NCBI GenBank assembly: GCA_003249165.1
Contig: QKJV01000377.1
Location: 1 to 38,921, forward strand
Source of the DNA: Desulfobulbaceae bacterium
GTDB taxonomy: Bacteria > Desulfobacterota > Desulfobulbia > Desulfobulbales > SURF-16
Length of the DNA stretch: 38,921 nt
Direction: 5' to 3'
Shown: piece after piece, positions 2,709-8,925 of the stretch
Layout: every line of letters starts with the position of its first letter
Position numbering within the stretch: the stretch's first letter is position 1
Notes under the pieces: generated by a model
Seen by the model: the letters and a program-made list of their open reading frames with translations, nothing else
Told to the model about the DNA's origin: nothing
Database searches by the model: none
Program-made: the position numbers and the translations under genes

Positions 2709-3674
2709 TTAATACTTCAACCCAACTTTCTCTCTGACGAGATCAAGGGTCACGGTGGCTTTTTCTCTAGCCTTTTCGGCTCCTTTCGCAAGAACCGCTC
2801 GCAGATATGCTGGGTCAGCGCACAATTTTTCTCTCTTTTCACGGGCCGACCGAAAATATTCCCAGAGAAGATCCACCAGCTCGAGTTTCAGATATCCATA
2901 AGCCGCTCCACCATTTACGTAAAGATCATGGACTTCCTTGACCCGATTGGCAGGGGCGAACAACTTGAATATATTAAACAGATTGCACTTATCCGGATCT
3001 TTTGGAGCTTCCACGGGAGCAGCGTCGGTAACGATTGCCATTACACGCTTTTTCAGTTCTTTTGCGTCAAGAAAGATACCGATAGTATTGCCATAGGATT
3101 TAGACATTTTCTGCCCATCAAGGCCTGGAACTGTTGCTACGTTTTCTTCGATAGCCGACTCCGGCACGACGAATGTCTCCCCATAGCTATTATTGAATTT
3201 AATGGCAATGTCGCGAGCTACTTCAAGATGTTGCTTCTGGTCCTTACCAACTGGTACGATATCAGCCTGGTACAAAAGAATATCCGCAGCCATAAGAACC
3301 GGGTAGGAAAAAAGCCCGTGGCTCGGCGCAATTCCCTTGGCTATTTTGTCCTTGAACGAATGACAGCGCTCAAGCAATCCCATTGGCGACAAGTTTGACA
3401 GAATCCATGTCAATTCGGTTACCTCCGGGACATCTGATTGTACCCAGAATATACATCTATCCGGGTCAAGACCCAAAGCAAGGAAGTCCGCTGCTGCTTC
3501 AAGCGTGTCCCGCGCAAGAGCCTTACTGTCAGTGACAGTGGTCAGGGCATGGAGATTAACAATAAAGGCATAAAGCTCCCCCTTGTCCATATAATTAATC
3601 ATGGGCTGCATCATACCGAAATAGTTACCAATATGTAATTTTCCAGAAGGCTGGATACCTGAGAGAATTTTCAT
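2709..3674 (-). CDS. trpS: Tryptophanyl-tRNA synthetase
   Basis: TrpS charges tRNA-Trp with tryptophan using ATP. The 321-residue class-Ic synthetase carries the HIGH-type signature in PSGKLHIGNYFG (about residues 10-21), the family motif LLYQADIVPVGKDQKQHLE (about 152-170) and the KMSKS loop as KMSKSYGNTI (about 208-217). Length fits bacterial TrpS. The Shine-Dalgarno sequence is weak. It stands alone between ectABC and grpE-dnaK and is probably independently expressed. Confidence 0.97.
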   Translation of the reverse strand: MKILSGIQPSGKLHIGNYFGMMQPMINYMDKGELYAFIVNLHALTTVTDSKALARDTLEAAADFLALGLDPDRCIFWVQSDVPEVTELTWILSNLSPMGLLERCHSFKDKIAKGIAPSHGLFSYPVLMAADILLYQADIVPVGKDQKQHLEVARDIAIKFNNSYGETFVVPESAIEENVATVPGLDGQKMSKSYGNTIGIFLDAKELKKRVMAIVTDAAPVEAPKDPDKCNLFNIFKLFAPANRVKEVHDLYVNGGAAYGYLKLELVDLLWEYFRSAREKREKLCADPAYLRAVLAKGAEKAREKATVTLDLVREKVGLKY

Positions 3675-3821: not shown

Positions 3822-5747
3822 TTACTTCACCTCTTCAAAATCAGCGTCTACAACATCATCATCGTCTTTTTTGCCGGAACCAGCTCCGCTGCCCGCGCTT
3901 CCACCACTTGCAGCTCCGCCCGCATCACCTCCGGGATGAGCCTTGGAGGCCTGCGAATACATAATTTCGGCAAGTTTATGCGAGGCTTGCGTCAGCTCGT
4001 CGGTCGCGGCTTTAATAGCATCAGCATCATTTCCCTCGAGCGTTTTTTTCAACTTCTCAATGCCTTGCTTAACTTTTTCCTTTGTTTCGGCATCAACTTT
4101 ATCGCCCACTTCTTTGAGGCTTTTTTCTGTAGCATAAATCAACGAATCGCCATTATTTTTTGCCTCAACAAGAGCTTTACGCTTCTTATCTTCTTCGGCA
4201 TGCGACTCCGCATCCCGTTTCATCTTCTCGATTTCCTGTTCTGTAAGGCCACTCGATGCCGTAATTTTGATGGATTGCTGCTTACCAGTGCCCAAATCTT
4301 TGGCGGAAACATGCAGAATTCCATTAGCATCAAGATCGAATGTTACCTCAATCTGAGGTATGCCACGAGGAGCAGGGGGAATATCTGTCAGCTCAAAACG
4401 GCCAATACTCTTGTTATCCTGCGCCATCTCCCGCTCTCCTTGAAGAACATGGATTGAAACGGCCGGCTGATTATCAGCAGCAGTGGAGAATATCTGGCTC
4501 TTCTTGGTCGGCACCGTTGTATTTTTCTCGATCAGTCTCGTGGTAACACCGCCAAGTGTTTCGATTCCCAATGAAAGAGGAGTAACATCGAGAAGCAGAA
4601 CATCTTTCACGTCGCCTTTCAAAACACCACCCTGAATCGCGGCACCAATGGCAACAACTTCATCAGGATTCACACCCTTGTGGGGATCTTTACCGAAAAT
4701 TTCTTTTACCTTCTGCTGCACTTTCGGCATCCTGGTCATGCCGCCGACAAGTATTACCTCGTCAATATCGGATATTGAGAGTCCGGCATCTTTCAGGGCA
4801 GTATTGCAAGGACCGACTGTACGGTCGATCAGGTCACCGACCAATGCCTCCAGTTTGGCCCTGCTCAGTTTCATATTGAGATGTTTAGGGCCGCTTGCAT
4901 CAGCAGTAATGAAGGGCAGATTAATTTCCGTCTCCATTGTTGAAGAAAGCTCTTTTTTAGCCTTCTCCGCTTCTTCTTTCAATCGTTGCAGGGCCATCTT
5001 GTCGAGCCGCAGATCAATTCCCTGGTCTCGCTTAAACTCATCCGCCAACCAGTTAACGATACGCATATCAAAATCTTCACCACCGAGGAAGGTATCACCA
5101 TTTGTTGATTTTACCTCAAATACACCATCACCGATTTCAAGAATGGATATGTCAAACGTACCACCGCCCAGATCATATACGGCAATGGTTTCTTCACCTT
5201 TTTTGTCAAGGCCGTAAGCCAGCGAAGCAGCAGTCGGTTCATTGATGATCCTCTGTACATTCAACCCGGCAATGCGGCCGGCATCCTTTGTAGCCTGACG
5301 CTGGCTATCGTTGAAATAAGCAGGAACGGTAATGACGGCATCGGTAACCTCTTCGCCCAGGTATTCTTCGGCGGTTTGTTTCATTTTCCCGAGCACCATT
5401 GCCGAAAGCTCTGCGGGAGTGTATTTCTTGCCGTCCACCTCAACTGCGGGGTCGCCTTTGCCCTCAACAATCTTAAACGGGCTAATTTCAATGGATTTTC
5501 TTACTTCCGGATCATTAAATTTGCGACCGATCAACCGTTTCATGGCGAATATGGTTCTCATCGGATTAGTAACCGCCTGCCGTCTTGCCACCTGGCCGAC
5601 CAAACGCTCACCATTCTCAGTAAATGCAACAACAGAAGGCGTTGTCCTGTTCCCTTCCGCATTTGTCAGCACTTTCGGCTCTCCACCTTCCATGACCGCA
5701 ACACATGAGTTAGTTGTCCCCAAGTCAATTCCTATAATTTTACCCAT
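3822..5747 (-). CDS. dnaK: Molecular chaperone DnaK (Hsp70)
   Basis: DnaK is the cytoplasmic ATP-dependent Hsp70 that binds exposed hydrophobic peptides, with GrpE as exchange factor and DnaJ as co-chaperone. The 641-residue protein has the nucleotide-binding signature [14 protein letters not shown] (4-17), the phosphate motif [13 protein letters not shown] (about 190-202) and [14 protein letters not shown] (about 334-347). Next come the linker [18 protein letters not shown] and the substrate-binding domain, then a lidded helical tail with a Gly/Ala/Ser-rich end finishing in DADFEEVK. grpE lies 48 bases upstream on the same strand. dnaJ and hrcA are not in the window. Confidence 0.98.
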
Positions 5748-5795: not shown

Positions 5796-6362
5796 TTAAT
5801 TCTTTTTCGCCACGACAACCTTTGCCGGACGTATTAACCTGTCTTTGTACATATATCCCTTTTCAAATTCCCGCAGAACACTGTTGGGATCAACCTCATC
5901 ACTTGCTTCCATTGCCAGAGCCTCATGAACATTCGGGTCAAACGGATTGCCAATGCTATTCATCGGCTGCAGTTCAAATTTTTCCAGAGCCGACATCAGC
6001 CCTTTATACGTCAACTCCACACCGGCAATCAAATCGCTTGCATTATTGGTTTTGCGTCCTTGCTCTATCGCTCGCTCCAGATTATCAATTGAGGGTAGTA
6101 ACTCTTTCAAAATCTGCTCTTCTGCATATTTCATGGCAAGCGATCGTTCACGCTCCATCCTTTTTTTATAATTTTCAAACTCTGCCGCCAGCCTTAACAA
6201 CTTATCCGTTGTATCAGCCAAGGATACTCGAGCCTGCTCAAGCTCATCAATTTCAGAAGAGTCCGTTTCATCCGCGGCCAGTTCTGCCGCAACCTCGACC
6301 TGCTCCGCTCCCTGTTTTCCAGGATTTTGAGTTTTGTCGATGTTTTCCTCTTTCTCTACCAC
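5796..6362 (-). CDS. grpE: Nucleotide exchange factor GrpE
   Basis: GrpE is a dimeric thermosensor that releases ADP from DnaK. The protein has an acidic N-terminal tail, a long helix (about residues 45-105, with LAAEFENYKKRMERERS), and the C-terminal beta domain with FDPNVHEALAME and VLREFEKGYMYKDRLIRPAKV. I start at GTG 6362 (188 aa): a strong AAGGAGG lies five bases upstream of it. An ATG at 6398 in the same frame would add 12 unlikely residues (MMHACGTG...) containing the Shine-Dalgarno itself. It forms an operon with dnaK and probably uses the heat-shock-like promoter near 6455-6482. Confidence 0.95.
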   Translation of the reverse strand: MVEKEENIDKTQNPGKQGAEQVEVAAELAADETDSSEIDELEQARVSLADTTDKLLRLAAEFENYKKRMERERSLAMKYAEEQILKELLPSIDNLERAIEQGRKTNNASDLIAGVELTYKGLMSALEKFELQPMNSIGNPFDPNVHEALAMEASDEVDPNSVLREFEKGYMYKDRLIRPAKVVVAKKN

Positions 6363-6773
6363 CAGCGCCTCCTTTCCAGTTCCGCAAGCATGCATCATCC
6401 CGGGAATGCAGGGATGTAATTAATTTTACTGTAAGTGTACTTAGGTAATTAGGCAAAAATGTACTTACCCTGTTTTTTCAAGCAGTTCATTCAGGGCTTT
6501 CATTGTGAGGAACAATAAGTATGCACTTTTTCATTGTCAAGTTAATCGGGAATATAGTTATCTTCTCTGTTTATTTGCTGCAATATTTCACTACTGCTTG
6601 ATTTAACGACAAAATTTCTGCTAATCTAATAATCGTAACCTTCTTCGATTTACAGCTAAAAACTGAAATTTAAGACAGGCTCTTCATAAATACCATTAGA
6701 AGAAAGTCTAATTCTCTGTATGCGGTATAAATTTCGCATATTTTTAATAAAGATTTTGTTTGTTTCATGGTGA
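6363..6773. other. Divergent intergenic region grpE / carbonic-anhydrase-like gene
   Basis: This 411-base region separates divergent genes. The grpE side holds a heat-shock-like promoter candidate and an imperfect inverted repeat (GTAAGTGTAC at 6431-6440, ATGTACTTAC near 6460-6468). The rest is AT-rich with no coding signal. I see no CIRCE element (TTAGCACTC-N9-GAGTGCTAA) and no clear promoter for the plus-strand gene. Confidence 0.5.
6455..6482 (-). promoter_or_regulatory. Candidate sigma-32-type promoter of grpE-dnaK
   Basis: On the minus strand CTTGAA (6482-6477) is followed after 15 bases by CATTTTT (6461-6455), resembling the heat-shock consensus CTTGAA-N13-15-CCCCATtT. The -10 half is only a partial match. 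Position about 95 bases upstream of the grpE start is reasonable. It is proposed by eye. Confidence 0.4.
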
Positions 6774-7643
6774 ATGATCAAGATGAATTTTTTACCAAAT
6801 TTCTCTATGTTAAAAAAAACAGGTTCTTTTTCTCTGAAATTTGCTCATTGCCTTGCCTTCGTTTTTCTTATTAGCATAATTTCCCTGCAGAGAAATGCTG
6901 GAGCCGAAATGTACCCTGTTCTAAAAAGCAGGGCAGGCACACCACCTTTCGAGATTATCGAGGCAATACTCCAATCGGGCAAAGGTATAAAAAAATCAGA
7001 CAACACACCTCTTGGAACTTATACTGTACCTGCACCGCATATTGTTTGGGTTGCCGATACTGACGCAAGAATTCAGCCGCAATACATCCTCACTCATCCG
7101 GAACAAAAAATATACAGCGTCCGCAACCTGGCAAATCAGCTTGATACTTCATTGGGCGCAATTGATTACGGCGTGCTCTATCTTCGCAGCCCAATCCTGC
7201 TAATAACTGGAAACACAGGCAATGAAGCCCTTCGTCTTTTTGCCGGAAATTACAAAGAACTTGACCAGTCCGTACGCCTTGAACTTGATCACCTGTACCC
7301 GGCACTCGGGTATTCCGGAAAGGATTCAAAAAAAACACAAAAAGAAAGAGAACTTCAGCTTGTTGAACAAAATGTTGATTACCAGGTAAGGCAAGCTCTT
7401 GAGCGCTACAGTGAAAGAGTCGAAAAAAAACGGCTCGTTGTGGTTGGCAGTGTATTGGATTTAACGAATGCTTACGGGAAAGGGATAAATCAATTAATAA
7501 TTATCAACATAAATGGCGAGACTGACGGGGAGAAAATCAGGAAAATGCAGCTGCTACGTTCAGTTAACCCGGAACTGCTGGCCAATATAGGCAGGCAAGC
7601 AGTTCCGAACATGGAAAAACCTAAGAAGCAAGATACTTTCTGA
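6774..7643 (+). CDS. Exported beta-carbonic-anhydrase-like protein lacking zinc ligands
   Basis: The 289-residue protein begins with a basic region and a hydrophobic stretch (about residues 22-38), then a likely signal-peptidase site after AGA (42-44), so it is probably periplasmic. The body follows the beta-carbonic anhydrase fold pattern: DTDAR (95-99) where the family has C-S-D-S-R, VRNLANQLDTSLGAIDYGVL (116-135), ITGNTGNEALRLF (144-156) where the family has G-H-x-x-C-G, and LVVVGSVLDLTNAYGKG (221-237). The zinc ligands are replaced: Cys to Asp95, His to Asn147, Cys to Asn150. The Asp97/Arg99 dyad remains. Activity as a carbonic anhydrase is therefore unlikely, and the function is unknown. 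Shine-Dalgarno is weak, so the start is uncertain. The 3' end overlaps the convergent aminotransferase gene by 23 bases. Confidence 0.75.
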   Translation: MIKMNFLPNFSMLKKTGSFSLKFAHCLAFVFLISIISLQRNAGAEMYPVLKSRAGTPPFEIIEAILQSGKGIKKSDNTPLGTYTVPAPHIVWVADTDARIQPQYILTHPEQKIYSVRNLANQLDTSLGAIDYGVLYLRSPILLITGNTGNEALRLFAGNYKELDQSVRLELDHLYPALGYSGKDSKKTQKERELQLVEQNVDYQVRQALERYSERVEKKRLVVVGSVLDLTNAYGKGINQLIIININGETDGEKIRKMQLLRSVNPELLANIGRQAVPNMEKPKKQDTF

Positions 7644-8925
7644 TACTTTCAGCAATAGTTGTAAAAACCATACGGAAATCATCTTCGTACCTTTCTAACA
7701 GAGTCACCCTGAAGCCCTGCATGGATGTGGCGAATGAAGAAAGAGGAACCACACATATTCCAGTTGCCCCAAGAAGATAGTAAACAAATCGCTTATCCAA
7801 AGAAACATTATCCGCACTAACAAGCCTTTCAATCTCGGCCCGTACTTGGCTGTTTTCTATCTCCAGTGTCTGTTTATGGGTCAACACCCCCTCCTGAAAT
7901 GCGACACTCATATAAAAAGCCCCATTGGTACGGTTAACGATAACCCCATCAATCTGTTTCAGGGTTTCATATGCGATATTTGAATACTTTTCGTACCGCC
8001 GTATCCTTTCATCGAGATAGTTTTGATATTCAGGATGACTGATGATGCGGGGATAAGCCCGCTGGGGTAAAGTTGTTGAGCAGACTTCCACCATTTTCGA
8101 ATTCAGAATTGATTGAGTGTACTTTTCAAACATAGGGTCACGGTGCCCGTTATAAACCTCTATCCAGCCGCATCGAGAACCGGGCCAGGGCATTTCCTTG
8201 GAAATACCGCGCATGGCAATAGCAGGGACATCGCCGACAATATCTGAAATAGGCGGCGTCTTTTGCCCGTTATAAACGATGTTATGGTATACTTCGTCAC
8301 AGATAATAAAAAGATCATATCTGCGGGCAATATCAATCATCCCCCGCAGGATGGATTCCGGATAAACCGCTCCGGTGGGATTATCCGGGTTGATTATAAG
8401 AATCCCGGCAACAGCCGGATTATATTTAATCCTTTTTTCAAGATCATCAAGATCCGGATACCAATGATTTTCAGGATCAAGTTTATACGTTACCGGCCGA
8501 TCACCGCAATGAGCCGCTTCGGCGGATGAATGTGTAGTATAACTCGGTGTCGGCACGACCACTCTGGCTGTTCGACGCAGAAAACCAAAAATTTTGGTAA
8601 TTGCGTCTCCCAATCCGTTAAAAAAGAGAATATCATTGGGACCGATCTGCGCTCCACCACGCTTATTCCGCCTGTCAGCGATAAACTTTCTGGTTTCCAG
8701 CATACCTCTGGTCGGTGAATAACCATATGTGGTGTCATCCATAACCAGCTCGGCCACAATCTCCTTCATCCATTTTGGAATTCTCTCACCTTTCGCTATG
8801 GGATCACCGATATTCTCCCAATGCGTTTTAATACCATATTCCTGCAATTTTTCGCCGACGTTGACAATGTTACGAATTTCATAAGTCAACTCACCTGCAC
8901 CGATATGCACAATGTCCGTCCTCAT
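7621..8925 (-). CDS. PLP-dependent aminotransferase, class I/II
   Basis: A cytoplasmic fold-type-I aminotransferase of 434 residues. Visible motifs are YGYSPTRGMLETRKFIADRR (67-86), INPDNPTG (178-185) with the substrate-carboxylate-binding Asn182, CDEVYHNIVY (209-218) with the PLP-ring Asp and Tyr, and GISKEMPWPGSRCGW (240-254) with Schiff-base Lys243 and phosphate-binding Arg251. The protein resembles aspartate/alanine-type aminotransferases, but the exact substrate cannot be read from sequence. It stands alone, with its stop overlapping the convergent carbonic-anhydrase-like gene. Confidence 0.85.
   Translation of the reverse strand: MRTDIVHIGAGELTYEIRNIVNVGEKLQEYGIKTHWENIGDPIAKGERIPKWMKEIVAELVMDDTTYGYSPTRGMLETRKFIADRRNKRGGAQIGPNDILFFNGLGDAITKIFGFLRRTARVVVPTPSYTTHSSAEAAHCGDRPVTYKLDPENHWYPDLDDLEKRIKYNPAVAGILIINPDNPTGAVYPESILRGMIDIARRYDLFIICDEVYHNIVYNGQKTPPISDIVGDVPAIAMRGISKEMPWPGSRCGWIEVYNGHRDPMFEKYTQSILNSKMVEVCSTTLPQRAYPRIISHPEYQNYLDERIRRYEKYSNIAYETLKQIDGVIVNRTNGAFYMSVAFQEGVLTHKQTLEIENSQVRAEIERLVSADNVSLDKRFVYYLLGATGICVVPLSSFATSMQGFRVTLLERYEDDFRMVFTTIAESIRKYLAS

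Follow-up and report, generated by a model that had tools for sequence, protein, structure and literature searches.

The animal proteins CARP VIII, X, and XI, which belong to the alpha class, have a carbonic anhydrase fold that has lost the zinc ligands and taken on a binding role. In the beta class we know of no loss of the zinc site other than that in a domain inside CsoSCA. The C-terminal beta-carbonic anhydrase domain of CsoSCA has lost its zinc site, and in a cyanobacterial enzyme an allosteric RuBP site lies near the defunct site (PMC11086599). CO2 hydration without a metal occurs in iota-carbonic anhydrases, an unrelated family (PMC8132391). No description of a zinc-less, free-standing, exported beta-carbonic anhydrase was found in the open-access literature searched, which is weak evidence as most subscription journals lie outside it.

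A gene for what is probably such a protein is found in a stretch of 38,921 nucleotides from a Desulfobulbaceae bacterium (contig QKJV01000377.1), here called the window. The features of the gene and its old active site are:

6774..7643, + strand: zinc-less beta-carbonic anhydrase homologue, 289 amino acids (Pfam PF00484, AF2 model, 59 orthologues)
6774..6905, + strand: predicted signal peptide, residues 1-44 or 12-44, cleavage after Ala44 (AF2 helix 21-40, hydrophobic core, orthologue alignment)
7047..7070, + strand: W92-V-A-D95-T-D97-A-R99, the beta-carbonic anhydrase C-x-D-x-R motif with Cys changed to Asp (W92 59/59, D95 57/59, D97 57/59, R99 52/59)
7209..7229, + strand: G146-N147-T148-G149-N150-E-A, the beta-carbonic anhydrase G-H-x-x-C-G-A motif with His and Cys replaced (alignment)

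The fold and the emptied zinc site

Pro_CA (PF00484) is the single Pfam family matched by the open reading frame (E-value 2.1e-11, 44.8 bits, cut-off 25.7) in a search taken up to E 0.1. A sequence search of the PDB gave strong scores for beta-carbonic anhydrases only, and D95, D97, R99, N147, and N150 fall on their C-x-D-x-R and H-x-x-C motifs. The AF2 model, made from 19 sequences from the window and related loci, has a pLDDT of 77.7 and a pTM of 0.71. When compared using Foldseek and VIA-align it matches beta-carbonic anhydrases, best of all M. tuberculosis Rv3588c (2a5v; Z 17.5, 3.2 Å over 183 residues), and the best 50 rows are all entries with this fold, two of them carbonyl sulfide hydrolase. 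Since the Pfam score lies above the cut-off and the model matches at Z 17.5, homology by chance is excluded. The first-pass annotation had claimed a retained beta-carbonic anhydrase framework and named a different predicted fold as an outcome that would speak against it; the framework is borne out by the Pfam score and the model, and the predicted fold is the expected one. The sole Pfam match and the fold also place the protein outside the iota-carbonic anhydrases. Among the PADLOC defence profiles there was one weak match (E 0.002), to an unnamed model, and the sole NCBIfam match, to DotU at 0.055, was rejected as chance.

The true start may be ATG 6807 (codon 12) instead of ATG 6774, where the open reading frame as given begins; the choice alters only the length of the signal peptide. 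This peptide was judged by eye and from hydropathy, not with a dedicated predictor. The N-terminus of the window protein has a hydrophobic segment that ends at an A-x-A-like site. All 59 orthologues have a hydrophobic segment as well, which ends just before the KxRxGxPP motif described below, at a conserved point in the alignment. Export, as proposed in the first-pass annotation, thus appears probable.

Numbered from ATG 6774, the window protein has Asp95, Asp97, Arg99, Asn147, and Asn150 at the positions that align with Cys/Asp/Arg/His/Cys, both in the H. influenzae enzyme and in a ligand-keeping paralogue encoded by the same genome (L055:6722-7576). The three zinc ligands other than Asp are changed exactly as first claimed. 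The mature protein contains no Cys, and its three His residues (89, 108, and 173) are not at ligand positions, so a Cys/His/Cys zinc site cannot form. None of the 59 orthologues has the Cys/His/Cys set, the three residues being replaced by Asp, mostly Asn, and Ser/Asn, respectively, and no His is conserved in 85% or more of the family. Of the hallmarks of the zinc enzymes the protein thus has the Asp/Arg dyad of C-x-D-x-R and lacks the Cys/His/Cys ligands, and judging from these residues it very probably does not act as a zinc-dependent carbonic anhydrase.

The dyad is kept in the window protein (D97, R99) as had been stated, but it is not invariant, occurring in 57 and 52 of the 59 sequences, respectively; the divergent members L038 and L039 have lost both residues (ADSGPGL, ADSSPGL). 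Conservation of the three replacing residues across species had been put forward as a check, and it was found for Asp95 (57/59), but not for the other two. Position 147 is Asn in 40 sequences and otherwise Ser, Asp, Gln, Pro, Val, Ile, Thr, or Ala, while position 150 is Ser in 43 and Asn in 14. Position 149 is Asp in 39 sequences and elsewhere Asn, Gly, Thr, or Ala, the window protein having Gly. Ranked by entropy among 230 positions, 95 and 97 come 22nd and 23rd, 99 comes 50th, 150 comes 62nd, and 147 comes 111th. As Asn147, position 150, and Arg99 vary, the emptied zinc site is probably not the new functional centre. The Asp95/Asp97 pair may be structural.

Two readings would still give the old pocket a task. 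According to one of them Asp95, Asp97, Asn147, and Asp/Ser at 149-150 form either a site with oxygen ligands for Mg, Ca, or Mn, or a catalytic site without metal. The conservation of D95 and D97, the frequent Asp149 (39/59) and Ser150 (43/59), and the metal-free hydration by iota-carbonic anhydrase (PMC8132391) agree with this. Such an enzyme is nevertheless quite unlikely, given the variation at 147 and 149, the Gly149 of the window protein itself, the absence of Asp97 and Arg99 from L038/L039, and the location outside the pocket of those family-specific residues that are most strictly fixed.

The other reading holds that the pocket has been rebuilt to bind bicarbonate, CO2, or another small anion, making the protein a periplasmic sensor or buffer of inorganic carbon that uses Trp92, Arg117, and Arg99. 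Trp39, Arg64, and Tyr181 of the H. influenzae beta-carbonic anhydrase belong to its non-catalytic bicarbonate site. W92 and R117, found in 59 and 54 of the 59 members, respectively, align with residues 39 and 64 of that enzyme (4waj; residues 86-122 align without gaps with 33-69 of the chain). In an alignment by eye the counterpart of Tyr181 is Leu228, however, and nearly all members have a residue other than Tyr at this position; Trp is also common at the place of W92 in ordinary beta-carbonic anhydrases and may be ancestral. A sensor of this kind therefore seems unlikely.

The family, its paralogues, and the locus

Searches of relatives, the order, and the phylum gave 59 distinct orthologues, all within the Desulfobulbales, an order of sulfur-cycling bacteria, and the matches outside the order in the phylum search retain the zinc ligands. 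In a scan of about 85,000 species genomes 18 loci were found; the informatively named ones come from Desulfobulbaceae or Desulfurivibrio, and the others are Proteobacteria or Deltaproteobacteria MAGs. The alignment comprises 96 sequences after removal of near-identical copies. It was split by ligands into 59 sequences without Cys/His/Cys and a comparison set of 37, defined by having these residues, of which 37/37 also appear canonical in other respects. In the midpoint-rooted tree of whole sequences the two sets are separated by one branch with a support of 100/100, and none of 200 bootstrap trees requires more than one change of ligand state. There was thus a single loss of the ligands, or at any rate the family forms one lineage. 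The gene is missing from several families of the order, and its role is thus dispensable or replaceable. One genome that is 6% contaminated (G513) has two different copies (L127 and L131), reflecting duplication or contamination.

Besides the zinc-less protein, the genome of the window encodes two Pro_CA proteins, and both keep the ligands. One is the paralogue L055:6722-7576, which has its own signal-like N-terminus, is located between genes for an HD-domain protein and valyl-tRNA synthetase, and is also found in many relatives. It shares about 35% identity over 180 residues with the zinc-less protein, including NVDYQV and NxNGE stretches, and the signal-like N-terminus is common to both. It differs in keeping C/D/R/H/C, in having a His/Gly-rich N-terminus in place of KxRxGxPP, and in being found at another locus. 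In these paralogues (L040-L060, e.g., L055:6722-7576) a His/Gly-rich stretch, such as ASDHGGGHGGGHGAA, often directly follows the signal peptide and is possibly a zinc-gathering tail. The other (L055:11625-12419) lies about 4 kb away, with the HD-domain and valyl-tRNA synthetase genes in between, and the same pair of beta-carbonic anhydrases is found in three other genomes (G001, G002, and G003).

The presence of an exported-type paralogue with intact ligands in the same genome and in many relatives would fit a role for the zinc-less protein as an inactive subunit, tuning the activity of the paralogue in mixed dimers or tetramers. The two genes are unlinked, however. In five genomes that are 91-100% complete (G013, G024, G026, G037, and G046), G024 being a single contig, the zinc-less protein is the only Pro_CA match, and two further genomes with the gene (G025 and G030) have no match to the Pro_CA profile at all. 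Conversely, G009 and G023 have the paralogue and lack the zinc-less gene. These genomes therefore rule out an obligate partnership as the general role, and such mixed oligomers are highly improbable.

The genes and promoter-like elements around the gene are:

5796..6398, - strand: grpE, divergent neighbour (Pfam, conserved synteny)
3822-5747: dnaK, with grpE (Pfam, conserved synteny)
2709-3674: trpS, with grpE-dnaK (Pfam, conserved synteny)
7621..8925, - strand: class I/II aminotransferase, convergent neighbour (Pfam, conserved synteny)
6598..6627, + strand: promoter-like TTGATT-N18-TAATCT with TG before the -10, for the zinc-less gene (upstream alignment of seven relatives, by eye)
6512..6540, - strand: promoter-like TTGACA-N17-TATTGT, for grpE-dnaK (aligned upstream regions)

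The zinc-less gene overlaps the aminotransferase gene by 23 bp at the 3' ends. In most genomes with readable flanks it points away from grpE-dnaK(-trpS) and often towards the aminotransferase gene. Exceptions include Desulfurivibrio, with an EamA-type transporter gene downstream, and G037, where grpE-dnaK-trpS is found downstream on the same strand. Where the gene is missing, grpE and the same aminotransferase gene are direct neighbours in eight of 15 loci read, so the gene is cleanly present or absent at a fixed spot. In G038 an unrelated open reading frame of 651 amino acids (L148:1784-3739), by eye similar to flagellar hook/rod proteins at its N-terminus, lies between the two. A SprA-related protein (PF12118; e.g., L083:10547-11521) recurs near the locus in many relatives, and none was seen in the portion of the window examined. 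The neighbours in the window and in the loci of relatives are housekeeping genes only, and no functional hints were found among them.

The upstream element CTTGATT...TCTGCTA is common to the genus of the window and the near family and is a plausible extended -10 promoter. A strict version of the pattern was found in 9 of the 59 upstream regions, compared with 0.05 expected from simple shuffles. It is distinct from the promoter-like element of grpE, suggesting that the zinc-less gene is transcribed separately from grpE-dnaK. Co-regulation with these genes by heat shock was considered and rejected, as none of the loci examined contains a CIRCE and the intergenic region between the divergent genes shows no sigma-32-like site.

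Newly fixed residues and the proposed role

Outside the old pocket, three elements are specific to the zinc-less family:

6909..6947, + strand: mature N-terminal motif M46-x-P-x-x-K51-x-R53-x-G55-x-P57-P58 (K51, G55, P57, and P58 59/59, R53 54/59)
7416..7436, + strand: R215...R220-L221, both arginines 59/59
7590..7595, + strand: C-terminal G273-R274 (G 59/59, R 57/59)

The N-terminal motif begins two residues past the predicted cleavage site, and KxRxGxPP is not conserved in the paralogues with intact ligands. In the closest of these, K/Q and D/E are found where the zinc-less family has R215 and R220, and position 274 is Ser in most of them. None of K51, G55, P57, P58, W92, R215, R220, G273, and R274 is fixed in the ligand-keeping set. 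The newly invariant basic residues thus occupy three regions: the N-terminal tail, a stretch close to where the last core strand begins, and the C-terminus. The AF2 model has a pLDDT below 50 at residues 45-53, as expected of a tail that becomes ordered upon binding, and a shallow alignment could give the same result.

In four close pairs dN is lower than dS, with dN/dS about 0.09-0.35 (NG86). In one genome pair the ratio is 0.19 for the zinc-less gene vs. 0.04 for the paralogue, and with YN00 it reaches 0.6 in one pair, so that constraint looks looser there. These values point to purifying selection. The evidence as a whole supports an exported pseudoenzyme that is selected for a task different from hydrating CO2 with zinc. 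The lost ligands, some variable active-site positions, and the absence of the gene from several families would also fit a relic, a former carbonic anhydrase gene in decay. Decay is contradicted by the new residues fixed in 59/59 and by dN<dS; moreover, all 59 sequences are intact, the signal segment is kept, and the promoter-like element is conserved in near relatives. A relic is hence scarcely credible. The proposal of a repurposed pseudoenzyme instead of decay is well supported by a clade of 59 members that have all lost the ligand set, by dN<dS, by mostly kept synteny, and by residues fixed after the ligands were lost.

The explanation we find reasonably probable is that the protein is an exported pseudoenzyme with the beta-carbonic anhydrase fold that has been repurposed for binding or scaffolding without catalysis. 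The basis of this explanation in fold, ligand loss, family, conservation, synteny, and independence from other Pro_CA proteins is computed. A beta-carbonic anhydrase with intact ligands would have been duplicated, and the ligand set lost once in the ancestor of the known members, presumably leaving a protein without zinc and without activity. A new surface would then have been fixed, consisting of the basic mature tail (KxRxGxPP), R215, R220, the C-terminal Gly-Arg, and Trp92. The protein would be made with a Sec-type signal peptide cleaved before Glu45-Met46, and its core kept most likely as a dimer-forming scaffold. From the basic character of the newly invariant residues and their positions in the three regions named above, we infer that this surface may bind an anionic ligand or else a partner in the periplasm or envelope. 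The protein would then act independently of the paralogue, as a scaffold or regulator. The binding part by itself is held with less confidence than the explanation as a whole. Asp95/Asp97 are conserved (57/59) more than expected if the old pocket has no role, which speaks against the explanation, and the housekeeping neighbours are uninformative on function.

Comparison with known systems

The chances appear roughly even that this is an undescribed family of free-standing, exported beta-carbonic anhydrase pseudoenzymes, confined to Desulfobulbales, in which an envelope protein binds its partner through the basic tail and the arginines. If true, this would clearly exemplify evolution from enzyme to binder, in a family whose members stand alone, are exported, occur across the order, and carry newly fixed features. 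The protein is likely annotated as carbonic anhydrase from its Pfam match, and counting it as one would mislead reconstructions of carbon metabolism, in particular for genomes such as G024 and G046 that encode no other Pro_CA protein.

With the beta-carbonic anhydrases (PF00484) the family shares the fold, the sequence frame, Asp97/Arg99 in most members, and R117-N118-x-x-N121-Q122; it differs in the absence of Cys/His/Cys from 59/59 and in the added N-terminal motif and arginines. CARP VIII, X, and XI are analogous in ligand loss and binding role, but have the unrelated alpha fold and are found in animals. The C-terminal domain of CsoSCA is likewise a beta-carbonic anhydrase domain without the zinc site. 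PF00484 as sole Pfam match, the single domain, and the neighbouring grpE-dnaK and aminotransferase genes set the protein apart from CsoSCA (PF08936). In CsoSCA the domain shares a single chain with an active domain and is cytoplasmic, in carboxysomes, while the zinc-less protein is free, probably exported, and in some genomes without an active Pro_CA partner.
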